Source: Asterella californica (taxonomy: Eukaryota; Streptophyta; Marchantiopsida; Marchantiales; Aytoniaceae). From it: DNA of 64,000 nt. A program made the position numbers and the translations under genes. The stretch lies in contig JAYKYS010000011.1 of the NCBI GenBank assembly GCA_036924285.1, positions 3,162,001 through 3,226,000 of the forward strand, given 5' to 3'. A model generated the notes under the pieces. It was not told where the DNA came from, searched no databases, and saw only the letters and a list, made by a program, of their open reading frames with translations. This document shows positions 13,220 through 62,640 of the stretch, one piece after another; the first letter of the stretch is position 1, and each line of letters begins with the position of its first letter.

Positions 13220-13850
13220 CACGGATTCACAAATAATCAGCAACTAGGGCCCTTGCATCCTTAGTATAGCGTCAGGAGTCACAAATACCCAATCAGCAAT
13301 AGTAAACTAGGGTCTAGCTTGATTTTTCCTTCTTTCGAGTCACGTAATTTCTCCACTAGGCGTCCAAATGAAATAGATGAAGTGTCCATGGAAAACTGAC
13401 AATGAGCTCTACCCATCGATGTAATGAAAGTGAAGATCCGAAGTTGTGCAAAAAGTCTGTAAGCTGAGGTCTAGCTTGTTTTTCCATCTTTCGAGTCTCG
13501 TAACTTCTCCACTAGACATCCAAATGAAGTAGACAAAGTATTCATGGAAAGATGACAATGAGCTATTCATCGTTGTAATGAATGTGAAGATCCAAAGTTG
13601 TGTCAAAAGTCCGTAAGCTGGAACTTAGCTTGTTTTTCTCATCTTTCGAGTCTTGGAACTTCTCCACTAGACGTCCAAATGAAGTAGACAAATTGTCCAT
13701 GAAAAGCTGACAATGAGCTCTAGCCATCGATGCGATGAAAGTGAAGATCTGAAGTTGTGCAAAAAGTCTCATTTTTAGTCCCATGAGTGTCTTTGGAGCG
13801 ATAATGATAAGCATCAGAATAGATTTTCATATAGGACACGACCTCATACG
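13220..13850 (-). repeat. 157-bp tandem array (about 3 units) with flanks, copy 1
   Basis: Units begin near 13309, 13467 and 13621, each with a variant of TCTAGCTTG-TTTTTCC-ATCTTTCGAGTC and the words TTCTCCACTAG and CCAAATGAAGTAGACAAA. The array and its flanks are the reverse complement of 41400-42050, including the outer words GAGTGTCTTTGGAGCGA (right side) and CCCTTGCATC-TTA (left side). It sits between the Ser/Lys-rich ORF and the gag remnant. Confidence 0.85.
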
Positions 13851-19490: not shown

Positions 19491-20379
19491 ATGGCTAACG
19501 TTAGTGATAACCTACTTCATGATCATCATAAGTTGGATAGCACCAACTATCCAATATGGTGCTTCAAGGTTCAAGCCATTTTTCAGAACTACGACTTATG
19601 GGACATAGTGTTGGGTGAGGAAGAAAGACCTATAGATTCACCAGCTGCTGTCAAAGCTTAGAACAAAAGAAATCAACAAGCACTTGCTATCATCAAGATG
19701 ACCATAAAAGACTCGGAAGTTATGGATATCTTGGAGGCTAAAACCTCTAAAGATGCTTGGGATACTTTCACCAAGAAGCACGAAGGAGCTGCTCGAGGAG
19801 GAAGAGAATGCTACGCAGAAAGTTAAACACTTTGCAGATGGTTGCAGACATCTCACTCGAAGAGCACTTCAATATTGTCAAAGGGTTGCTACAACAACTG
19901 AAGAATCTGGGTGGAGGTATAGATGAGGACGACTTGGTGCTTATAGTGCTCCAGAGCTTACCAGAACCGTATGAGCACTTCGTCAAGCAGTGGATGTCCG
20001 CAAGGAGCCTGTCTCATTTGAAGAACTGCAAACACTAGCTTTGCAAGAAGCAATGAATATCGAAACCAAGTCAACTCAAGCAACTACCACAATTGATTCA
20101 GCTTTCTTCTCCAAGAGGAGAGATCATAAACGTGGTAGACCTCAAGACTCACAACCAAAACAGAAGGAGTTTTGAGACAACAAGAAAGGCAAATTCAACA
20201 AACGAGATTCAGAGGGCAACTCCAACAAACCTAAACCTGGGAACTGCAACTACTGTAAGAAACATGGTCACTATGCTTATGAGTGCAGGAAGAAGGCATT
20301 TGATCAACGTTCCAACACAAACAACAGAGGTAACTTCGTACAGACAACTGATCACGAAGAGAAGCTGTTCTTCACTGCC
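19491..20379 (+). pseudogene. copia gag with CCHC knuckle, broken
   Basis: An ATG at 19491 (MANVSDNLLHDHH) starts the gag polyprotein, with LDSTNYPIW typical of copia gag. The frame meets a TAG near 19660 (probably a former Trp codon), shifts near 19790 into the 19757-20038 frame (FNIVKGLLQQLKNLGG, DEDDLVLIVLQSLPEPYE), and shifts again near 20000 into the frame of pol. A TGA occurs near 20173. The zinc knuckle CNYCKKHGHYAYEC follows at about 20246-20287. It would form the capsid and bind RNA, but two stops and two shifts prevent this. Confidence 0.9.
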
Positions 20380-23300
20380 ATGTATACAGACACACATGAC
20401 CAACAATGGTGGATTGATTCTGGAGCATCAAATCATATCACCTCAAAGAAGGAGTGGTTTCAAAACTTTCATCCTCTTAATGGACCAGAGATTCGACTAG
20501 GAGATGGTAAGGACTACCAAGTCCAAGGAGAACGTAACGTTCGTATTAAGCTACCTTCAGGACAGATAAGAATCATTAGAGGTGTCTGGTTTGTACCTGG
20601 TGTAGTGCATAATCTTCTGAGTGTTGGTAAACTTGCTGCAAACGGATTTCAACTGTCATTTGATGCTCAAGGATGTTCAATTCTTGACCAAGGATCTGTA
20701 GTAGCTACATGGCTTAAGGTTGGCCACTTGTATGAGTTACAAGTCTTACCCTTAGTAGCTCCAGTTCTAGCTGCTGTAACAGAGATCAGCCAGTTATGGC
20801 ATCTACGACTTGGACATTTACACTATCAGAGGATGCAGAAGTTGTTTCATGAGAACTTAGCACTTGGTGTTTCCAAACTCGCCCCTGTAAACACCCCATG
20901 TGAAGTTTGTCTCAGATCTAAACAAACTCGAAGGAAGTTCTTTAAGACTACTGCAACAAGGGCAACAGATATCCTTCAGCTGTTACATATAGATCTCTGT
21001 GGACCTACTGAGATCATATCGCTTGGAGGTTCTAAGTACTTTATGCTGGTTGTTGATGACTTCTCGAGATACATTTGGGTTTTCTTCCTCTTAAGAAAGT
21101 CTGAAGCAGTCTCGAATCTTCAACAACTTGTTAACATGGTGGAAAGACAGATTGGACAGCAAGTGAAACAGCTACGAAGTGATAGAGGAGGAGAGTTCAC
21201 TTCCAAGGCAGCTGACCAATATTTCGCTGAGAAGAGGATACTGCGGCAGTTGACTACAGCTTACACGCCTCAGCAAAATGGAGTTATTGAAAGAAAGAAC
21301 AGAACTGTTGTGGAGATGGCAAGAAGTCTTCTTCTTGAGCAAGATCTTCCAAAAAATCTTTGGGCTGAAGCTGTCAATACTGCGGTCTACCTTCTCAACA
21401 GAAGTCCAACAAATGCTGTGAACAACAAAACTCCATTCGAAGCTTTCACAAGGAAGAAACCAGACCTCTCTAACCTACGAATTTTTGGATGTAAAGCATA
21501 TGTTTCAACTCCTCAAAAATTACTCCAAAACTTTGATGATAGATCTCAGCTCTGTACATTCATAGGATATCCAGCAAGAGAAAAGGGATATAAGCTATTG
21601 AGTGCTGCAAGAAAGATCATCATCAGTCGAGATATAGTGTTTTTAGAGGTCCCCTCATCTCGAAACTTACAACACCATCTTTCTGACCTGCCACCTCTCT
21701 CTATCCAAACACCTACTTCAGATAACCATGAAGAAGAACCTCAAGCTCAACTAGAACCACCTCCTACACCACCCACACAAGTTGAGCTTACTGAATCAGG
21801 TCCAACTACAGCAGATTCGCCTCTCATTCATCAGCCTACTCCAGATTCGAATCTTGCTACCCAACCAAGGAGACCTATCAGAACAAGGAAGGTTCCTGCA
21901 AGGCTACATGATTATATTCTCATGGCTGAAGCTCAAGGTGATGGAGAGACTATTACATTCGAGGAAGCTTTCAGTAAGAATCACTGGAGACGTGTTATGC
22001 AGGAAGAATATGATGCACTGCTCAAAAATGCAACCTGGAGCCTAGTACCTCTTCCAACAAATAGGAAAGCACTTGGCTGTAAGTGGGTTTATAAGATCAA
22101 GAGGCATGCGGATGGAACTATTGAGAGATACAAGGCTCGTCTTGTTGCAAAAGATTATTGGCAGACTGCAGAAGAAGATTTTCAAGAGACCTTCACACCT
22201 GTGGTAAAACATAACTCTATTCGAGTTCTTTGTGCTCTTGCAAAACAACATGGTTGGAAGTGTCTACAAATGGATGTTAAGAATGCATTCCTTAATGACA
22301 TTCTTGAAGAAGATATCTACTTGCAGCAACCACCTGGTTTTCGTCGTCAAGGAAGTGGACAGTTAGTGTGCAAGCTGCACAAGGCATTGTATGGTCTCAA
22401 ACAAGCTCCAAGAGCTTGGTACATAAGAATCGACACCTTCTTGAGGCAACAAGACTTCTCTCTTACAAGAGGTGATCCAAACTTATATGTTTTGATTACT
22501 TCTCAAGGTATTGTGTTACTGTTACTGTACGTGGATGACCTGATAATATCCGGAAGTAATCAAGGAGGAGTAAAGAAGATTCAGCAAGCTTTAATGCAAG
22601 AGTTTGATATGAAGGATCTAGGACTTCTCAACTTTTGTCTTGGAGTTCAATTTTTGGAACACAACGAAATGTTATATCTCTCTCAGGCAAGATACCAGAA
22701 AGTATACTTCAGGATTTCCAGATGGAGAAGTGCAAGCCTGCGCCTACTCCTATGGTTATCTCAAAGGAGTGGCAAAGTTCTTCTGTTGATGATGAGCAGG
22801 CAGATGCAACAGAGTTCAGGAAGCTGATCGGGAAGTTAATTTATCTGGCTGTCACTACAAGACCAGATATTTCATATGCAATCAGCAAACTCAGTCAGAA
22901 TATGGAGTCTCCCACACTTATGCATATGAGGGCAGCAAAGAGAGTTTTGCGCTACCTCAAGGGAACTACCAGCTATGGGCTCAGATATAGCTCAGATAAG
23001 TCACTTGGACTTGTTGGATTTACAGATGCTGATTGGGCAGGATTCTACAGATCGTAAATCAATGTCTGGATTCGCATTTATGCTGGGAGGGGGTGCCATC
23101 CTTGGCAGTGTAAAAAGAAGCTAACTATTGCTTTATCCTCCTCTGAAGCAGAATATCGTGACCTGTGTAATGTAGCACGAGAGGCCATTTGACTAAGATG
23201 GATGTTGGAGGATGTAGGTGTCAACCAAGACACTCCAACAGTAATCTGGACTGATAGCATGAGTGCAATAGCATTGGCGAAAAATCCAATGCATCATGCT

Positions 23301-25539: not shown

Positions 25540-26660
<1,121 letters not shown>

Positions 26661-36817: not shown

Positions 36818-38131
36818 CTACACTGTGTGATGGGGAGGTGCATGGCCCGCGACTCCTCCAGAATTCGACCGCCGCAAAGATGGCATTGTGTCACAGCCCC
36901 AACGTTGTGAGGAATCTTCAGAAGGTTGGGACGAAGGTCCGTCATCGATTGCTGGGCAGGTACTGGCAGTGATATCGATCTCCCCGTATTGAGGAAGTGG
37001 AGGAAGTGGGTGTAGCGTATCGAGAGGAACTAAACAGTCCAGGTAGCTCTGGACATGTCGCATGCTCGGCCTCCTGACGGGATCAAAATGGCAGCAGGCG
37101 AGTGCCACGGTCAGCATGGTGGTGATTCCTTCAGCTGGGTAACCCCCACACTGCGGGAGGTCGAGGTTAGGATCGGCCGCTTCCAACAACTTCCCTTCAT
37201 GGTATAAGGTGGCCACCAACAGCGGCAGCCCTCCGTAGCAGAATGACGGGCTTTGACCAGTGGCAACTTCCATCATCAAAACTCCGAAACTGTAAACGTC
37301 GCTCTTGTCCGTGAATCTGCCAGACATCATACTTTCCGGAGCCATGTAGTCCGGGCTGCCTGCAACTCGATTGGTGCGGAGAGCGGATTCATCGAGTGGA
37401 TAAAACCCCCCAAGACCGAAATCGCCGAGCCGTGCATTGTAGTCTCTGTCGAGCAAAACGTTGCGGGACTTCACGTCCCGATGCACCATTCGTTTTCCTG
37501 AAATTCCTTCGTGTAGAAGTGTCAGAGGTGCCGCCAGTCCTTTCACGATATTCATTCTCACATGCCACTGAACCGGCCATTGAGCCTTTCGAGGAGGTAG
37601 ACCAGGAGCTCGCTCCTTCTTGTGCAGCAACTCATGCAGATCCCCGTTGGGCATATACTCGTACACTATTAAGTACTTCCCTCTCTCACAACACCATCCG
37701 CGCAAACGCACGAGATTTGCATGACGCACAGCACCGATTGTCTCTACCTCCGCCTGGAACTCTTTTTTACTATCCACATTATCTTCCTTGATGGACTTGA
37801 CAGCAATCGTGGAGTCGTCAGATCTAGAGCTTCCACCCGCTTCGTGGTTAGGAAAGGTGCCTTTGTACACAATTCCGAACCCCCCTTTCCCGATAATGTT
37901 CTTTTTGCTGAAGTTGTTTGTGGCCACAGATAGATGTTCGTAACTGAAAATCCGAGGTCCGTATATCTCTGTATTGAACTCCACTCCCGGAGTCTCTGAA
38001 TTGCTCATGCGGTTGCTTCCTGTAATATCTTGGAAAGAAATCCTAGGAGTTTGTGCTCGACGCCGGAGAATCCACAGAACGAGACACACCACGAAAAGAG
38101 AAGGAAGGCTCAGATTGATCCTTTTATGTTT
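36818..38131 (-). CDS. Kinase half of an L-type lectin receptor-like kinase
   Basis: The minus-strand frame reads a hydrophobic transmembrane-like segment (LPSLFVVCLVLW) followed by the stop-transfer RRR, a juxtamembrane region and a full protein kinase domain. Numbering from the first Val of the 424-codon ORF: glycine loop GKGGFG 68-73, Lys99 in IAVK, Glu115 in helix C, HRD 204-206, DFG 224-226, APE 251-253, so it is an RD kinase with all catalytic residues. The tail to residue 424 is Ser/Pro-rich. The closest family is lectin receptor kinases (FSYEHLSVATNNFS, VAGSPDYMAPE), which sense extracellular ligands at the plasma membrane. There is no start Met or signal peptide upstream; a TGA about 15 codons before the membrane segment closes the frame. 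The matching lectin domain lies next door on the opposite strand, so the gene appears split by an inversion. Confidence 0.85.
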   Translation of the reverse strand, partial: KHKRINLSLPSLFVVCLVLWILRRRAQTPRISFQDITGSNRMSNSETPGVEFNTEIYGPRIFSYEHLSVATNNFSKKNIIGKGGFGIVYKGTFPNHEAGGSSRSDDSTIAVKSIKEDNVDSKKEFQAEVETIGAVRHANLVRLRGWCCERGKYLIVYEYMPNGDLHELLHKKERAPGLPPRKAQWPVQWHVRMNIVKGLAAPLTLLHEGISGKRMVHRDVKSRNVLLDRDYNARLGDFGLGGFYPLDESALRTNRVAGSPDYMAPESMMSGRFTDKSDVYSFGVLMMEVATGQSPSFCYGGLPLLVATLYHEGKLLEAADPNLDLPQCGGYPAEGITTMLTVALACCHFDPVRRPSMRHVQSYLDCLVPLDTLHPLPPLPQYGEIDITASTCPAIDDGPSSQPSEDSSQRWGCDTMPSLRRSNSGGVAGHAPPHHTV

Positions 38132-38149
38132 TGTTGATCAATAAAACAT
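38126..38149. repeat. 24-bp palindrome at the split of the receptor kinase
   Basis: A palindrome centred on TGATCA with one mismatched base pair; the arms begin ATGTTTT and end AAAACAT. It overlaps the point where the kinase-side frame is closed. Confidence 0.85.
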
Positions 38150-38218: not shown

Positions 38219-38934
38219 GAGATCTTATGTACAACTAATGCGGGTTTAACGGATCCGGACAGTAAACGCGTAGCTATGTGTCTCACTCCACCTGGTGATA
38301 CAGTACTGGGACTGAACCAATCAGCTGTAGGGAGATGCATGTACAACAGATCCATTCAATTTTCGGGAGGGAGCTCTTTCAGCACAGCATTCAGCTTCAA
38401 CTACTAACAGATCGGCAGATTCACGGCGAAGGTTTTGTGTTTATTATCAGCACAGATGGTTCATACGCTCCGCAGCCTCTAAGCGAAGGACGCGAATTCA
38501 TGGGCTGGCTGAACAGTTCGACCAATGGGAACTCTACTGATCTCAATTTTGGAGTGGAGTTCGACTTGAAGCATACACCGGCATTCCAGGATCCAGAAAA
38601 TGCTCACGTGGGAATCAATCTCGACAGCATGATTTCGCTGAACACGACAGAGACTCCTATCATCAACACAACGAATTCTATGGCCATCACATATGCCTGG
38701 ATCGACTATGATTACACCACGTTAGAAGGCGAGGTGAGAGTGAGCTTGGATCCATGGAAGCCATGTGAAGCGATTTTGAGCCACAAGGTAGACCTAAGTA
38801 AGTTGCTGTCGGAACTGAGGTACGTCGGATTCGCGGCTTCGACTGGACCCGCTAGCTCAAGCCTTTCGGAACCCACCATTTTCGACTGGACTTTCAGTTC
38901 AAAAGGGCAACCTGTCGGTTCCTGGACTGTTTAA
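38219..38934 (+). pseudogene. Legume-type (L-type) lectin domain, frameshifted, inverted relative to its kinase
   Basis: The plus strand reads the lectin N-terminal half from 38219 (LNQSAVGRCMYN, then GGSSFSTAFSFNY) up to a TAA near 38406. The rest is in another frame: HGEGFVFIIS, FGVEFDLKH, AHVGINLDS, ITYAWIDYDY, LRYVGFAASTG and IFDWTFSS, ending in a stop at 38934. These are the hallmark strands of the legume lectin fold, including the metal- and sugar-site region (VEFD, HVGI). One indel between about 38395 and 38435 joins the halves. Downstream there is no stalk, membrane segment or kinase; those lie on the minus strand next to the lectin's N-terminal side. In a normal receptor the lectin C-terminus leads to the membrane segment, so the block looks flipped. 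It could also be a separate soluble lectin gene, but the frameshift argues it is dead. Confidence 0.8.
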
Positions 38935-41182: not shown

Positions 41183-42050
41183 TCAGAACAAAATGAACAA
41201 ACAAGTCGCATAGAGAATTTGTGAAGTTATTGATGATGAAAAAAAGAAAAACGTGAAACAATGAATAACCAACGGATGGAAAGACCTCATCAAGCCATTC
41301 AAAAAGGACTCGAAGGGTAAAGCAACCAACGCTCCGAAGGGAGGAAGAACATCGGGGCTAAACCATGCTATCAGTAGCTCTAACGTCACCTGCCGCTCTT
41401 AAAATATCACACACCGGTGTCGTGTCATGGACCGGCTCCTATCTGGTATTCAGACTTCGATGCTTGTCGCTCCAAAGACACTCATGAGAAAGATAAGCTA
41501 GGCTCTAGCTTACGGGCTTTTGGTATCATTTCGGATCTCCATTTTCATCGCATAGATGGGTAAAGCTAATTGTCAGCTTTCCATAGCACTTTGTCTACTT
41601 CGTTTGGACGCCTAGTGGAGAAGTTACAAGACTCGAAAGATGGAGAAAACAAGCTAAGCCCTAGCTTACGAGCTTTTTGCACAACTTCAGATCTTCGCTT
41701 TTATCGCATCAGTGGATAGAGCTCCTTGCCAGCTTTTCATATGCACTTTGTCTACTTCGTTTGGACGCCTAGTGGAGAAGTTATAAGACTCGAAAGATGG
41801 AGAAAACAAGCTAGGCTCCAGCTTACGGGCTTTTGGCGCAACTTCAGATCTTCACTTTCATCACATAGATAGGTAGAGCTCATTGTCAGTTTTCCATGGG
41901 CATCTTGTCTACTTCATTTGGACACCTACTGGAGAAGTTATGCGATTCGAAAGAAGGGAAAATCAAGTTAGGCCTTAGTTTACTTGCTGACTGGGTATTT
42001 GCAACCCCGGGTGTTATATTAAAGATGCAAGGGGCCTGCTTCCTCATTAT
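41183..42050 (-). repeat. 157-bp tandem array and flanking repeat, copy 2 (inverted)
   Basis: Units start at 41495, 41651, 41808 and 41965 (AAGCTAGGCTCTAGCTTACG and variants), a period of 156-157 bp. With the flank 41183-41490 (matching 6930-7105 and 13780-13850) and the right end to about 42050 (matching 13220-13300) it is the reverse complement of copy 1. The family is therefore an interspersed element, with its ends not yet defined. Confidence 0.85.
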
Positions 42051-54638: not shown

Positions 54639-54744
54639 TGTCGTGCGCATACACATCGTTACACAACATACATCGCTGTTAGAGATACACCGCACATACA
54701 CATAAAACACGGACGATCTCATACACATCCACAAGTGTACCACA
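54639..54744 (-). repeat. Short LTR-like repeat, copy 2
   Basis: Aligns with 55042-55159 in the same orientation (shared ACACAACATACATCGCTGT and ACATCCACAAGTGTACCACA). On the minus strand it begins TGTGGTAC and ends CGACA, the TG...CA pattern of LTRs. The two copies are 297 bp apart. Confidence 0.7.
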
Positions 54745-55041
54745 ATAATCTGAACAGAGAAATTATCATCTCCAACACTGCAACAAAGATTACTCATAAA
54801 CGGTCAAGTCAAACCCACTCTATGCTCGAAGAGAATCCGGGTTACACTCAACTAGACTATCCATCATAGCTTGGAGCTTGAAGACTCAACTTGAAGAACT
54901 AAGACCTCCAAGCTCTACCTGCGAAGTATACCCCTAGTGAGTTCTCTCACCAACTCGCCCTAACGGCACTAACGGCCTTACCGGGATTCGTCACTCCGCA
55001 CTCGATCAACCTAGCCGAGGTACCCAAACTGACGTGACAGC

Positions 55042-55159
55042 TGTCATGCGCATACACATCGCTACACAACATACATCGCTGTCAGAGATTACATCACATA
55101 TACACATAAAACACGGATGATCTCTTACACATCCACAAGTGTACCACAAGTGTACCACA
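55042..55159 (-). repeat. Putative 3' LTR of the gypsy element, copy 1
   Basis: Minus-strand ends are TGTGGTACAC and ATGACA. It follows a purine run AGTTAGGGGGGCGA (55162-55176 region) that fits a polypurine tract at the end of the minus-strand gypsy element. A 12-bp internal duplication (ACAAGTGTACCAC) makes it longer than copy 2. I could not find a matching 5' LTR above 62.5 kb. Confidence 0.5.
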
Positions 55160-55332: not shown

Positions 55333-55752
55333 CTATATACATCGAGGACAAACCCACCGTCTAGTAGGAACGATACTAAGAGGTGGAGTCAAACATGACA
55401 TGTGTCAACCTCTAGAACAACCATTACACACCAACATATGGGCTGCTCCACCAGCAAACTCACATAACATACACCTCAAGCCCGCCCGTACAACTGCTAA
55501 GCTTGGGTCAATGGTACCATCGATGTTGAGAAGATGACATGACGCGCAATTCCGCACATGATCCTTCCAAACAACACCATCACGGCCCTCTAACATGAGT
55601 ACTCCAGAAGGTAACACCTCACGCACTCGTAAAATGGTGCGTCTTACGCTCACGTCCAACATCATCGGTGCAGTCTGCTTGTAGATAGATATAATCGCCA
55701 GGATGAAACTTGCAAATCGATGGTCGATAACCTCCTCCTCGAATAGTCGCAT
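55333..55752 (-). pseudogene. C-terminal tail with PHD-type zinc finger
   Basis: The frame from 55752 runs through a beta-rich stretch (LPSGVLMLEGRDGVVWKDHV) into a zinc finger starting at 55473: CMLC, then CNGC, then (past a TGA that replaces the expected Trp, 55405-55407) HMSC, and finally WVCPRC at 55339-55353, with a stop at 55333-55335. The C4-H-C3 spacing, the hydrophobic LTPPL before the last pair and the Trp two residues before Cys are those of PHD fingers, which read histone H3 tails. Gypsy integrases often end in a chromodomain that directs integration; a PHD finger here could do an equivalent job. That role is inference. Confidence 0.8.
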
Positions 55753-56001: not shown

Positions 56002-56896
56002 TCAGTCTCCCAAGTGGCCCTTCTGCAAGCCATACTTGTGCAATCCTCTCTTCACCGTCTGAACTACCCTCTCTGCCAAACCATCCGCCTCAAGATGATC
56101 TCGAGATGTAGTCCGATGATCAATCAGCGCCTGATCACACAAGGTCTGAAACTCACCAAGGAACTCTGTACCTTGATCTGTCAGCACTTCAGCTGGTGCT
56201 CCAAAATGACTCAGCACTCGATCTAGGAACGCATACGCTGTCTCTTCACTCGTCTTTGTTTGGTAACGCCACCAACTCAATCCACTTGGAGAAGTGCTCC
56301 ACCATCACCAACACATACCGGTAGTGACGTATGGTCAACGGTAAAGGTCCCGCAAAATCCAAACTTCAACTGTAACCCAACCTCATAATCGGTAAGAGGT
56401 GTAACTGTGTATGAGCATTAAATGATGCTCGTACTCGATCACAAACCACACATCGTGCGACAAACTGCTGCACATCGACGTGCATACCACGCCACCAATA
56501 CTGTCCTTGGAGTAAGCTATGTGTACGCTTCACTCCAAAATGTCCCAACTCCTCATGGGCATGTCGTACTAACTGTGTCCTCTGAGATGGATGTGGCACT
56601 ATCCATACTCTCTCATCGTCCCAGACTCGGAGTACATGTCGTCTTTCTCGTCGAAATCTCTTCGCTCGTTGAAAGACACGATCTCGCTCCTTGGCACTTA
56701 CTGTGTCTATTACCACGCCAGTACATAGATACTCCATTACAGTCACATCGTCATGGATATCTCGCTGGTCTGGTACACCATCTCCGCCCTCAAGATCTGG
56801 AGACTCATCATCTACTCTCTGACCAGAGAAAGATACGACTTGGCCCTCCATACTAGAGTTCATGACCAACACATAAAAAAAGCAGATGCATGCCAC
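56002..56896 (-). pseudogene. Integrase of the gypsy element
   Basis: ORF 56366-56896 holds the HHCC zinc-binding part (HAHEELGHFGVKRTH, then CVVC). After a frame change, ORF 56002-56280 carries the catalytic core: LTDQGTEFLGEF with the second Asp, and the catalytic Glu in HLEADGLAERVVQTVK. The region of the first Asp (56280-56366) is in a broken frame. Inserts element DNA into the genome in active relatives. Confidence 0.85.
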
Positions 56897-56903
56897 CCTG
56901 ACA

Positions 56904-57368
56904 CTATCTCCTCATCAACCTCGTCATGTCATCGAGCCCCAGTCTGATTCTGCTGCATGGGTTACGACTCAACTCATCGGCATCTAGGTTTACAACTCCA
57001 GGTCTATGTACTACCTGGAAGTCATACTTCGATAAGATAAAAGCCCATCGTGCAAGCTTCCCTGTAAGCTTGTCAGACTCCATCAACCACTTGAGCGGCT
57101 GGTGATCAGTGATGAGAGTAAAGGGGTTCCTAAACAAATAACATCGGAAGTGTGCAACAGCTCACACTGCAGCTAAACACTCCCCCTCGTACGAACTATA
57201 CCTCGCCTCCGTTGAATTGTTGGAGCGACTGACATACGTCACCACAAACTCCTTTTTCTCATCATCATGCTGAGTCAACACTACTCCAAGTCCCAACATA
57301 CTCCAATCTGTGTGCAGTTGGAAAGGACGCCCCCTAACGGGTCTCCTCAAGATGAAAGCAGATGTCAA
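56904..57368 (-). pseudogene. RNase H of the gypsy element
   Basis: ORF 57162-57368 reads LHTDWSMLGLGVVLTQHDD (TDWS with the catalytic Asp) and RYSSYEGECLAAV. After a stop near 57160 the same frame continues at 57137 with LITDHQPLKWLM and RPGVVNLDADELSR. Typical gypsy RNase H and tether, one stop between. Confidence 0.9.
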
Positions 57369-57402
57369 CTTATCCTTGAGCTCTACAAAAGCTCGCTCCT
57401 GC

Positions 57403-58408
57403 TCATCTCCCCACTGTCACTCCTGGTCCACCTTCATCAGCTTGGTCAATGGCTTCACAATTGCACCGACGATAGAAGTTCACCAAACTAACAAATGCTC
57501 GAACTCGACTCACATCTGTGGGACGTGAGATACGTGCAATAGTCTCAACCTTCGTATGTTGAACATCCAACCCACCTGGGTAGATGGTGTGGTCCAGATA
57601 CTCTACCAACTCCTGGAAGAACTTACACTTCTCAGGGTGTAACTTCAACCTATGAGCTCTCAACCGCTCGAACACATCTCGTAAGTGTCTCTCGTGCGCC
57701 TCCACATTAGCACTATAGACTAAGATGTTGTCAATATAACATCTGACAAAATCCAATCCTGCTAGGATCCTGTCCATCACCCTCTGGAACTCAACAGGGG
57801 CGTTCTTCAACCCAAATGGTAAGAACCGCCACTGATACAAACCATCTTTGCCGTGAGAGTCAATTCCTCAGAATGCTGTCTTGGACTTATCTTCTTCTCT
57901 CACTGGCAACGGATGATACCCTGCTCGAAGATCCAAAGTACTGAAGACCTTCACATGCCCCACTGCATCAAAGATCTCCTCAGGTGTCGGCATGGCATAC
58001 TTATCGGACTTCTTCTGCCGATTGATAGAACGGTAGTCTCCACACATCTGTCTATCAGTTGCCATACATATCCTTCTTTGCTGGCATAACTGTGGCAGAT
58101 GCATACTCTCCATGCGACATCTCCATCAACCCAGCCTCCAACAAGTCTTGAGTCCTACTCTGGATCAAGACTCTCTCCATGTCACTATACTTGTAAGGAC
58201 GTCGAAAGATTGACGTGTCATTAGCCAAGTCGATCCTTATACTTGGTCCCTTCAAGGTACCCAAATCCTTCATACTGAAGGTAAAACAATTCCTGTAACT
58301 CTTCAGGAACCTCTGAACTCTTCGTCTCTCCTCTCTTATAAGCTTGGGTCCAATCTCTGGCTCCCAAGTATCCTCTGTTACCATGCTAGAGGTAGAAGAC
58401 GAAGTCAT
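57403..58408 (-). pseudogene. Reverse transcriptase of the gypsy element
   Basis: ORF 58055-58408 gives the N-terminal fingers (SIRIDLAND, EAGLMEMSHGEYASATVMP). A frameshift near 58060-58110 leads to CGDYRSINRQ, then PTPEEIFDAVGHVKVFSTLD, LRAGYHPLPV. After a stop near 57866, ORF 57403-57840 has FGLKNAPVEFQRVMD and CYIDNILVYS. The catalytic YIDD is YIDN in this copy, so the second metal-binding Asp is lost. The connection to RNase H follows. Confidence 0.9.
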
Positions 58409-58639
58409 TGACTGCTATCTTGCAGCCTCTGGAGCAATTTCCTTCTGCTCACCACCAACAACCTCCACCGCCACTGTGCGAATAACTCGTACTGTCCTAG
58501 CTGCAAGCTCCACACTCTCTCCTATGACATCCTATTATGTCCAAGGATGACGAACTTCGCACGCCTCGCCCCTAGCCTTTGTCTCCACCGACTCGATAGG
58601 CAAAGAGCTCAGAAGTGTCCGAACAGTAACACCCGTTGA

Positions 58640-59632
58640 TCACATCCGACGCTGCTCAGCCAATCCAAGGCTAACAATCCATGTCAAGCAATTGAAGTCC
58701 ATTGCTTGACCCAATACTTGACGACGTGAAGTCTCCGACACCGAAGCTACTGCCGTTGTACCCATAGCGAAACCCATCGCTCGTTTTCTCTCATCGGCAT
58801 TGAGCTCCACCAACTGTCGTAATTGAGCATCCCACACAAGCCCAGGTCCTCCATCTCTGTAAACATGTGACGCTGGAAAGCTTACCAAAGTGGGTAACGC
58901 TACCACGGGCCGTCCCACTAGGTTCATCACTGCCATGGGTGACCTATCGACAACTCTCACTACTTGAGATCGTCGCTCTGCATCTAAGATGTCATCAATT
59001 GTGAGGTGTTCTGATCGTCTCACTGCATCGTGTGTTCGCTTGAGCACCTCCTTCGATAACAAGTTCGTCCACCACAACTGTGGACAATGTGCATGAGATC
59101 CTACTCTCGCTGCATCTAACAACACTGCCGGTCTGACCCAGGACCGCACTTGGTACACACTCGTCATCATTTGTGTACGAGCATCACCCAACAAAGAAAC
59201 ATTCTCCAAGATGTACGTTGGAGAATCCACCGGATGCGTCTGAAGATATCATAAGATTCGTAACATCATCCAGAACATCCTAGATCGCGGGTCATGTAAA
59301 CCCTGACCTCTCCCAGCACGCGTGTGACCTTGACATGACCACCCGACTATCACCAAGTGAATGATGCCAACAAACGTGAGATCCTGCGCCCTCAGCAACG
59401 AAATATTTGACGGTAATGCTTGCTGGTATCCTCTAACAATTGATATGGACAACAACTCAGGATATCTCTACACCAAACGTACCACATGACGCAATGAGAT
59501 GCATCTCGTAACCTCATCTCTCTCCACATACAAGTATCGCTGTACTCGCATGTCTGCTTGCAATACCGCAGCCAAACATGTACTGATTCCTCCAAATAGC
59601 TCCAGCACACACACACCCTCCCCTAGATATTG
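58640..59632 (-). pseudogene. C5-cytosine DNA methyltransferase domain inside the gypsy polyprotein
   Basis: One continuous minus-strand frame of about 325 codons with only two stops (TAG 59468-59470, TGA 59249-59251). Motif I is VLELFGGIST near 59580-59610 (SAM binding); the following YLYVERDE fits the acidic residue of motif II. Motif IV is VGWSCQGHTRAGRGQGL near 59290-59360, with the catalytic Cys present but Ser in place of the usual Pro of PC. Motif VI is ILENV (ENV at 59198-59206). Motif VIII-like LWWTN, then the target-recognition stretch, motif IX/X-like ERKRAMGF and RRQVLGQAMD close the domain. The layout is closest to DNMT3/DRM-like enzymes. It sits between the protease and RT, in the protease-linker frame. 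It would methylate cytosines; this copy is dead. Confidence 0.88.
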
Positions 59633-60468
59633 TCATACAATGAGAGTCATATCCAATGGTGATAAGGTCACAGGGCCAGTAGCAGGAACAACCTTTGGTT
59701 CTTCTACTGGTGGTACAAAGGCTTCACTCCAAGCCTGCTGCACCAACCGATCAGCATATTGCTGCAACTCTCCACTCGAACTCCAGAGTGGAACATCCAA
59801 GGTAGATGGTACTACCGTAGTCATGCTAGGCATGTCGTCCATCTCCTCAAAGACCGGAGTATCCTCCGCATGAACATTGTCCTCTAACAACTTGCTCGGC
59901 CAAGTGATGACCGAACTGAACCCTGGAACGGATGCCATCGTCCTTGGTGTAGGCTCCATTGTCCCAACTCTAGCACTGAACCGCATTGGTAAGCGGCTCA
60001 CTTGTCCCTCACCGGACTGCCAACCTGGTCTGTAAGATGTTGTCTCTGTCCAATAATTGATCACAAACCCCATAAGATATAACACAGCACCTCCAACCAA
60101 TACATCATAAGACTCCGTGGTCGTAACGATGGCTTTGGCTCTTATCATGTGAGGTGATCTGGTCAAATTCTCACCATCAACGTCTCACATGTCATGTGTA
60201 GAGCTGTACCTCCTGATCCTCATAGAGATGGCTGTTGCTGGAATGGACATCTCTCAACCTCGGACTTCCTCAGACCCAAGCCAATACACGCCGTCTTCCT
60301 CAAAATCAACGGTTGGGCTCCAGAGTCTAACAAGACTTTCTGCGGTCGATACACCTTTTCTGACGGTGCCACCAAACAGAAGATATCACTTCTGTTGTCC
60401 AACAACACCACACTTGGGACCAAACCAGCACGGTCAATCGCCGGTCTAGCTGGTAACTCATCTAACAT
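59633..60468 (-). pseudogene. Aspartic protease and linker of the gypsy element
   Basis: ORF 60220-60468 holds VLLDSGAQPLILRKTACIG, the DSGA active-site motif of retroviral-type proteases. A frameshift near 60190 leads to ORF 59633-60166, which starts with a protease-like end (TTTESYDVLVGGAVLYLMGF) and continues as a Pro/Ser-rich linker to a TGA at 59633-59635, directly followed in frame by the methyltransferase domain. Confidence 0.75.
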
Positions 60469-61058
60469 GACAGCCGCCGCTTGTCAAGTACCACTGTTAG
60501 CTGTCTTGATCCTCGACTCCATGGACGCATCTACCGTCTCTCACTGAACCACCTCAGCACTAGAGGTAACAACATCCTCGCTCTTACTAAGCGTGGTCGC
60601 CAACTGAAACACTGGAGCTAAGCTGACTCCCAATGTCCTCATATCCGTGGCTGAAAATAGTGGGGCTCACAAAACTGCTGTAGCCGTCCCCAACATCGGG
60701 TTCGACATCGCATCCACAGACGTCGAGGGTTGACGTACATCACCCTCACTCCTGGATGTCGATGCTTCCAACTCCACTGCATCATCGATAGACCGTTTAG
60801 GAACCATAGACGTGATCGTCAACGCCTCCGATAACGTGAAGGATTGAGGAAGCCTGGTCTGTCTACTAGCCTCTCCGCCTTGTGGATCCAACTCCACTGA
60901 CGCACCTCACGGCTCAGAGGCACGTACTGCATCTCGAGTCACTGCCGCCAGATGTCTCAATCTCTGTCACACCAGCCATGAAGTCGAAGTCACCTCCTTC
61001 TCCTCCATAAGACGCGGAAGCCTCTGTTCCACCTGATCTCCGTTGAGCTATAGCCATA
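60469..61058 (-). pseudogene. Low-complexity linker of the gypsy polyprotein
   Basis: Same frame as the protease ORF (for example 60667-60897, rich in Ser, Thr, Glu), interrupted by stops. No domain. Confidence 0.5.
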
Positions 61059-61412
61059 CTAGCTATCCTCAATTCGGCAAGCCATACCTGCTTCTGACGT
61101 CGTAGCAGACGGTGGACCGACCGGTCCTCTCCCAGATGCTGGACCTCTATCTCCAGCTCGACCACCACGGTCTCCTTGAACTCCTCCGTCTCGTCCACGA
61201 TTAGCCTTCCCTTGCCGTAGCTCGAGATGAAGATCAAAACAACGGTCACTACTGTGACCAAGTCGTCCGCAATACTCACATTGCCTAGGTACCGCTTGAG
61301 ACGTCCTTGACGTCTCATAACCACCTCTCCTCTGTGGACAATCCTTTTGCTGATGAAGACCATCACACATCCAGCAAAGACCCGCTTGCTGTTGACTAGA
61401 GAAGGACAGCAT
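61059..61412 (-). pseudogene. Gag C-terminal part with two CCHC-type knuckles
   Basis: The ORF of 117 codons contains CWMCDGLHQQKDC and CEYCGRLGHSSDRC (C-x2-C-x3-[GL]H-x4-C), then an Arg/Gly-rich tail (GDRGGRAGDRGPASGRG). Nucleocapsid-type RNA binding. The overlapping longer ORF in another frame (60914-61621) is mostly a shadow. Confidence 0.85.
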
Positions 61413-62507
61413 GGGCTTCTACCCACCAGATCCTCCAACACCTCCTTGGGACCGTGACTGCTCCGCACGATCTTTACCACCACCACCACCACGCTGTTGC
61501 GTAGCTTGTGATCCTCAAGAAGAGGTGGTCGCCCCATGTGGTGTCTCCTTGCTGAACCCAGCAACCACCACTCTCTCCTCCACCATGTTGAGCTCAATCC
61601 GCTCAGCCAAACCAAAGACAACCGCTAACTTCAGAGCAGTCTCTCTAAGAAGAGTGGCATCTCTGACTCTCCTACGCAGCTCCCCATCTAGTATCCCATA
61701 CTAGAACTAGACTGCTTGTGCTTCCGTCACCCTTTGAGTAACGCTGATCAACCGCCTCATGTGAGTAAACGGCTCACGTATGCTCTCTCCAGTCTTCCGC
61801 TGGAACTCCTACAGACTCCTCAACTTATCGGTCCGCACACCTTGATAGTTCTTCCTCAAACATTGGAAGAACTAAACCACAGGGTTAAACCCTAGTGGTA
61901 TCACGCTCACACTACCACCTGCTCCACTACTAGTGGACGCACTGTCGGTAGTAGGTACTCCGCCACCTGTGGATAAACCACTACTACTGGCACCCCAACT
62001 CGTAGGTGCTACGCCTCTTGAAACTGCGCAAGTAGTGATAGAAACGTAGTTGGGAGAGCAATGTTGTCTCCACAACTCAATCTCCATACTGTAGTCTCGT
62101 TGGAACTCATGATAATCGTCCATCGACGGTCCCTCCAAGTGCTGGAACAAACCCTTCCACGTCATGAAGGGTGTAAACAGTTGTGGGTTCCGCATCTGCT
62201 GTAGATCGCACCAACAGTCGAACTCTTGGATGGAGTCATCCAGCTCGATGATACCCACTGTACCCGAGTAACGTCGAGGTCCCTTCATGGCCTCATAGAT
62301 CTCGTCCATGTCCCACAACAAGGGTGTGGTGACACTCGACTCATCACCAGAAAACACGCTATCTACGTCTGACTCGTCCTCTAGAACAACGGACGGTAAT
62401 GGTGTAGGTAGTCGATACCTCACCCCACTTTGTGTATATCCATTGTCCGAGAAGTCCTCACCAGAATCTCCCGAGAACTCCGTGATGAGAGAATCTCGGT
62501 AACACAC
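61413..62507 (-). pseudogene. Gag N-terminal and capsid part of the gypsy element
   Basis: The 211-codon ORF 61872-62507 begins MCYRDSLITEFSGDSG, has an acidic N-terminus, a capsid-like stretch (LFTPFMTWKGLFQHLEG, MDDYHEFQRDYSMEIELW) and a Ser/Gly/Thr-rich end. The frame then breaks repeatedly until the knuckles. Start chosen as the first Met of the frame; upstream sequence has stops. Confidence 0.65.
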
Positions 62508-62640
62508 TCTCCAACCAGAATGTCGAAATCTCCGTCACCACCATTATCGTATAATATGTTTTTCTGTCTAAGAATACACGGGGTATATGGCTATGTAGAG
62601 ATAAGTGATTTGAACAGGTTGGCTCTGAACCTTGATCTTT

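Follow-up and report, generated by a model that had tools for sequence, protein, structure and literature searches.

A Ty3/gypsy retrotransposon family in the liverwort Asterella californica that very probably encodes its own DNMT3-type methyltransferase

The DNA analysed here, hereafter the window, is a stretch of 64,000 nucleotides from a 517-Mb assembly of the Asterella californica genome (GCA_036924285.1, contig JAYKYS010000011.1, positions 3,162,001 to 3,226,000 of the forward strand). It holds, on the minus strand, a Ty3/gypsy-type element in which a frame with the motifs of a C5-DNA-methyltransferase (MTase) lies between protease and reverse transcriptase (RT). This arrangement had been claimed in an initial annotation made from the sequence alone, and the domain order supports it, with the protease-like LLDSGAQPL on one side of the MTase and RT on the other. 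Read 5' to 3' along the element, the parts are:

61872..62534, minus strand: N-terminal part of gag (from translation; resembles the relative P0101 by eye)
61059..61418, minus strand: zinc-knuckle part of gag (zf-CCHC, E 0.0055, 17.2 bits, under the 20.8 cut-off)
60220..60483, minus strand: protease-like stretch with LLDSGAQPL (from translation; aspartyl protease matches at the same place in relatives P0117, P0121 and P0147)
58640..59632, minus strand: DNMT3-type C5-methyltransferase domain, degenerate, with two in-frame stops (motifs, Pfam, phmmer)
58415..58417, minus strand: TAG stop followed by CAG TCA (TAG-CAR-YYA), between the MTase open reading frame (ORF) and RT, which follows in the same frame
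57403..58414, minus strand: reverse transcriptase, broken (RVT_1, 3.9e-22 for 57406-57864)
56904..57416, minus strand: RNase H-like domain, broken (from translation; RT_RNaseH matched in the young copy L006)
56366..56911, minus strand: integrase zinc-binding (H2C2-like) region (from translation; Integrase_H2C2 matched in the relative L097)
56002..56304, minus strand: integrase core (rve, E 1e-7, 32.6 bits, at the cut-off)
55339..55473, minus strand: PHD-finger-like Cys/His motif 3' of the integrase, with one internal stop (from translation)
55042..55149, minus strand: repeat B1 (repeat comparison)
55040..55041, minus strand: GC dinucleotide at the B1/A2 junction (CATGACA-GC-TGTCACG)
54746..55039, minus strand: repeat A2, 294 bp, with an altered priming stretch (AGTTCTTCAAG vs AGTTCTTTGAG)
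54639..54745, minus strand: repeat B2, the right end of the element (repeat comparison)

The element in the window is an old, truncated copy, approximately 90% identical to young loci of the same genome. Similarity to young copies stops at about 62542, and the loss includes repeat A1, which was not found up to 67000 (the window and 3 kb more of the same contig). The remainder is further broken by stops and frame shifts, and a short N-terminal part of the MTase sits beyond a stop at 59633. Relative to locus L008, the differences are mostly transitions (238 C>T or G>A, 81 in the reverse direction and 60 transversions). Within 57009-61609, C>T is seen at 9.9% of C, G>A at 9.4% of G, T>C at 2.2% of T and A>G at 5.3% of A. 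The rate of C>T-type change is 0.116 at CG, 0.12 at CHG and 0.084 at CHH sites, and given that the excess of CG and CHG over CHH is only mild, the copy bears no strong methylation scar.

Elsewhere in the window, an 883-aa open frame (20176-22827, plus strand) reads from its translation as a Ty1/copia polyprotein, and a polyubiquitin gene of four units (25540-26508, minus strand) has 228-bp repeats that also give a long open frame on the opposite strand. A kinase frame (36818-38137, minus strand) and a legume-lectin frame (38299-38934, plus strand) are divergent, as if a lectin receptor kinase gene had been split and partly inverted. Two arrays of approximately 156-bp tandem units (13301-13769 and 41490-41984) lie in inverted orientation and are 80-85% complementary across 28 kb.

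The MTase frame contains, in the order originally claimed, LELFGGIST (motif I), GWSCQGH (IV), LENV (VI), LWWTN (VIII) and GQAMD (X). Taken alone, the window copy is only suggestive of a C5-MTase, given that it scores 19.6 bits against the Pfam profile PF00145 (E 6.9e-4, cut-off 22) and that its best solved relative by phmmer, DNMT3A, is matched at E 0.0015. The profile search proposed in the initial annotation thus fell short for the window copy and succeeded for the young copy L006, at 35.7 bits. Against a large protein collection, phmmer returned 99 proteins at E ≤0.001, the best with 69% identity across 99% of the query (E 1.4e-145), which marks the frame as more than a chance resemblance. 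Among 30 young loci of the Asterella genome, 28 keep all six motifs checked, and motif IV reads GWPCQGH in 29; our own script finds the frame free of stops in 26 of the 30, and the search output itself lists none in the matched stretch for 27. Across 14 diverse members, the cysteine of motif IV, the EN of motif VI and the RxR of motif VIII are invariant. A profile of the relatives matches DNMT3 at 4.1e-23 vs DNMT2 at 1.1e-7 or 9.1e-8, and the fold of the young-copy MTase is that of a full DNMT3 catalytic domain. With this profile and fold match and with motifs I, IV (Cys), VI (ENV), VIII and X unpermuted, the domain is assigned to the DNMT3 type. A Pfam scan of L006:1-3222 gave no ADD or PWWP match. 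Assignment to the DRM type was ruled out, as the motifs run linearly from I to X with no circular rearrangement and DNMT3A is matched linearly. We regard it as very probable that a DNMT3-type enzyme is integral to an active or recently active element.

The suggestion that a related lineage lived in this genome is supported but too modestly worded. Genome-wide, a 33-base signature of the MTase, allowing 3 mismatches at most, is found at 1,378 sites (683+695), which are signature sites and not complete-element counts; read backwards, the same signature is found at 0 sites. A copy search with a Calypogeia protein as query produced 5,563 candidates and 61 scored copies, the best-scoring ones; among these the matched stretch is stop-free in 48, and many have open frames of approximately 1,370 aa. 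In nine measured copies, picked from the best-scoring ones and not a sample of all copies, the terminal direct repeats are 99.66-100% identical. The family includes many copies, some of them young and intact-looking, and both a C5-MTase profile match and further copies in gag-protease-MTase-RT order were found. Among copies, pN/pS is 0.215 for the MTase (28 of 30 copies, 378 pairs), 0.113 for the protease (27 of 30) and 0.084 for RT (23 of 30), where the MTase and protease values are biased low, since copy selection used similarity to a protein that spans these two domains. Compared with Marchantia, identity is 79% in the MTase and 82-83% in RT and RNase H, vs 55% in gag, 61% in the linker and 56% in the tail, and this difference between the MTase and gag, linker and tail favours constraint acting on the MTase. 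For the Klebsormidium MTase, Ka/Ks is given as below 0.2 (PMC5890265).

Those of the 99 phmmer matches that are named by organism come from bryophytes (Marchantia, Riccia, Calypogeia and Sphagnum). Some of the 32 proteins returned by a longer query are polyproteins from Marchantia and Sphagnum, where the MTase is next to gag, protease, RT, RNase H, integrase or a PHD finger. Three protein searches, two of which scored only candidates sharing most words, yielded 212 relatives, mostly from metagenome or transcriptome contigs and classified with domain profiles built from members. MTase and RT occur together in 70 of the 212. In 24 of these the MTase precedes RT, as in Marchantia P0106 and P0114 and in Closterium P0169 and P0171; in the other 46 it comes after RNase H, as in Chlamydomonas eustigma P0204. 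A PHD finger occurs in some members of each type. Quick trees were made from 59 proteins with both domains at usable length, among them our own copy. The RT tree separates the two MTase positions with a single change (SH-aLRT 94), and the MTase tree does the same once DNMT3A and two long rows, P0210 and P0203, are left out (SH-aLRT 99); with these three included, the after-RNase-H group still falls on one side of a branch (96), and the other group takes two changes. The two trees thus divide alike, and the MTase has travelled with its RT and, most simply, moved position once. One relative, L097 (CADCWO010000201.1, 1-9285), is a Gypsy-Dnmt element of another host lineage with 49% MTase identity. 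Its contig is binned as a cyanobacterium, likely through eukaryotic contamination in a public genome. In the assembly, 127 end bases that are identical close this contig into a circle, and the circle may reflect a collapsed repeat.

The MTase ORF ends in TAG CAG TCA in 29 of 30 loci as well as in the window, and RT comes next in the same frame. TAG-CAR-YYA is the leaky-stop context of tobacco mosaic virus, and the stop is probably leaky here too; with such readthrough, the MTase would be made at the level of Gag. L097 has TAG CAA TCA at the same place, followed in frame by RT to PHD. A stop common to relatives is likely, though at the protein level only a part of them show it: among 29 with an AMDLN motif and <160 aa after it, five end exactly 92 aa after the motif (P0003, P0026, P0031, P0080 and P0100, of which P0031 and P0100 are from Calypogeia and P0080 from Sphagnum) and two end 90 aa after it (P0037 and P0101). 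The remaining proteins stop at other places, in many cases on short contigs, and P0091 continues into RT-like sequence. In P0121, P0129, P0138 and P0147, MTase and RT share one frame without a stop.

The full Cys/His pattern of the PHD finger follows the integrase in 44 of 48 right ends examined (50 fetched), and Pfam PHD matches were obtained for P0125 (4.4e-9), L097 (4.3e-10), P0164 and P0182. Such a finger is found in 52 of the 212 relatives, and may steer integration. In P0164, of the algal type, residues 1075-1130 after the PHD finger weakly resemble PTM_DIR17_Tudor (E 0.0011, 19.2 bits, under the 27.2 cut-off).

The left end of the element is a 294-bp repeat, A1, that starts with TGTCACG and is repeated near the right end in nine of ten copies tried, A1 and A2 being 100% identical in five of these and 99.66% in four. 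The right end terminates in CACGACA, and a 4-bp target duplication is legible by eye in 9/9 copies. A2 was located in 42 of the 50 right ends fetched, and the order there is B1-GC-A2-B2, giving a whole element of the form A1-int-B1-GC-A2-B2 with split direct repeats. The junction of B1 and A2 is CACGACA-GC-TGTCACG in young copies, vs the CATGACA form of the window, and the GC is present in 40/40 readable copies. Of 39 readable A2|B2 junctions, 32 are clean, five have one extra A, and two carry inserts, one of 22 and one of 27 bases. The longer insert terminates in GGGGGGCGA, which are letters of the polypurine tract; the tract itself (TTAGGGGGGCGA in the copy shown) lies directly 5' of B1. In 9/9 copies the 11 bases 3' of A1 match positions 140-150 of A in reverse complement. 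Of 390 internal 11-mers in one copy, only this primer-site 11-mer has its complement in A+B, and a predicted RNA fold pairs the two. In Tf1, too, the primer site is self-complementary and adjoins the first repeat on its 3' side, and we hold with good confidence that the RNA would prime itself as in Tf1. L097 has the same CACGACAGCTGTCACG junction, a G-run ahead of it and two self-complementary 13-base stretches separated by 176 bases. DIRS elements have a tyrosine recombinase instead of a DDE integrase and make no target duplication; that status was ruled out here by the rve integrase and the duplications in all nine copies.

The polypurine tract 5' of B1 and the primer site 3' of A1 place the LTR of the cDNA at B-GC-A, and opening a 2-LTR circle at a single internal B-GC-A would yield the integrated order A-int-B-GC-A-B. 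Constancy of B1-GC-A2 beside variation of A2|B2 suggests integration from such circles, in which ends A and B would have been joined and the DDE integrase would cut the fixed palindromic CACGACA-GC-TGTCACG inside the LTR; the integrated form would then be a permuted element with split direct repeats. We put this forward tentatively, at less than an even chance. In 1984 circles were put forward as the integration precursors of a retrovirus, a claim that was later abandoned (PMC11054761). DIRS-like templated completion of the ends is a possible but doubtful origin of the split repeats, which are DIRS-like as in KnitGypsy-Dnmt3 (PMC5890265) and join cleanly at A2|B2 in most copies; however, a junction that varies where its neighbour does not, a cDNA LTR of B-GC-A form, and an rve integrase with 4-bp target duplication all speak against it. 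The two MTase places would also suit a bryophyte-type MTase captured independently of that in algal-type elements. We consider such a capture rather improbable, as the MTase and RT trees split alike (SH-aLRT for the MTase 96 if the long rows are included and 99 if not, and for RT 94; the long branch DNMT3A was the single cellular outgroup) and both types include carriers of the PHD finger. That the whole resemblance is due to chance in a broken frame, or to an assembly artefact, is practically inconceivable; its one support is that the window copy alone lies under the Pfam cut-off, and the findings above have already refuted it.

We are highly confident of the overall reading, namely a Ty3/gypsy family with a gag-protease ORF ending in a DNMT3-type MTase, a TAG-CAR-YYA stop and RT-RNase H-integrase-PHD in the same frame. 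With it goes the following proposed life cycle. The leaky stop would cause the MTase to be made at Gag level, and the protease would free it inside the particle. The element RNA would prime itself, and the cDNA, carrying LTRs of the form B-GC-A, would have its ends joined into a 2-LTR circle, which integrase would cut at the internal B-GC-A site, leaving TG..CA ends. The packaged MTase would methylate element DNA before or at insertion, and a new copy would arrive already marked. Two bolder extensions, which lie outside the tentative standing of the circle reading, are that the Gag-level enzyme would methylate the circle before insertion and that the PHD finger on the integrase would read target chromatin. 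To the putative methylation of the element's own DNA before insertion we give only slightly less than an even chance; the benefit would most likely be that the new copy is silenced from the start or escapes recognition as foreign. We think it unlikely that the domain persists for a function other than methylation (nucleic-acid binding or particle structure) or because it methylates RNA. The enzymes of KnitGypsy-Dnmt3 and of a Symbiodinium LINE gave no DNA methylation in yeast, RNA being raised for the latter (PMC5890265), and MTase pN/pS is the highest of the three domains measured, but the invariant catalytic residues, the six motifs in 28 of 30 young loci, the full DNMT3 fold and a DNMT2 profile match far below DNMT3 are at odds with such a role. 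Equally unlikely is action in trans on host DNA or a disturbance of host silencing. The many signature sites could supply much enzyme if expressed, and host-methylome effects are discussed for Symbiodinium (PMC5890265), whereas a place inside the gag-protease ORF predicts packaging with RNA and cDNA, and the K. nitens methylome is land-plant-like (PMC5890265). With relatives in liverworts and Sphagnum, the genetic model Marchantia could serve to study the benefit that DNA methylation brings to a transposon. The junctions suggest an integration route that is not accepted for LTR elements and that would explain the DIRS-like repeats of Gypsy-Dnmt elements.

The precedent named in the initial annotation is real, as de Mendoza et al. 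2018 (PMC5890265) reports Dnmt-carrying retrotransposons. One published paper describes land plants as without such elements, and none of the five DNA methyltransferases counted in a Marchantia methylome paper is of retrotransposon type (PMC5784723). Our literature search found, for such elements, no bryophyte hosts, no MTase upstream of an in-frame TAG-CAR-YYA stop, no PHD finger after the integrase, no Tf1-like self-priming, no pair of MTase positions co-inherited with RT and no constant B1-GC-A2 beside a variable A2|B2 junction. Plant DRM differs from the Asterella MTase in its permuted motif order, and plant DRM/DNMT3 and animal DNMT3A/3B differ in not being part of a retroelement polyprotein. 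Tf1/sushi and Tcn1 chromoviruses, whose self-priming is treated by Neumann et al. 2019 (PMC6317226), likewise have a self-complementary primer site, which in the Asterella element is recognised by sequence complementarity only, and lack the MTase, PHD finger and split direct repeats of the Asterella element. SymbioDIRS-Dnmt3 of Symbiodinium shares a Dnmt3-type MTase in a retrotransposon polyprotein, with CG methylation activity demonstrated in yeast (PMC5890265), but it is a DIRS element, whereas ours has an rve integrase and 4-bp target duplications. KnitGypsy-Dnmt3 of Klebsormidium nitens is a Gypsy element with Dnmt3 and DIRS-like repeats in a host whose methylome resembles that of land plants; its enzyme showed no activity in the yeast assay, which the authors call inconclusive (PMC5890265). 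No K. nitens protein is among the named matches of our protein searches (212 relatives), and the comparison is with its description in the main text of PMC5890265, where 'PHD' and 'readthrough' each have 0 occurrences. The Asterella element shares its Gypsy pol in protease-RT-RNase H-integrase order (from the window pieces, L006 for RT and RNase H, L097 for RT to integrase, and relatives), its unpermuted Dnmt3-type MTase within the polyprotein, its conserved key residues and its DIRS-like split direct repeats. Unlike KnitGypsy-Dnmt3 as described, it has Asterella as host, an MTase upstream of a TAG-CAR-YYA stop and a PHD finger after the integrase. KnitGypsy-Dnmt3 is the closest known system and the kind of element is already known, to which the Asterella version adds its host, stop, PHD, priming and junction features.
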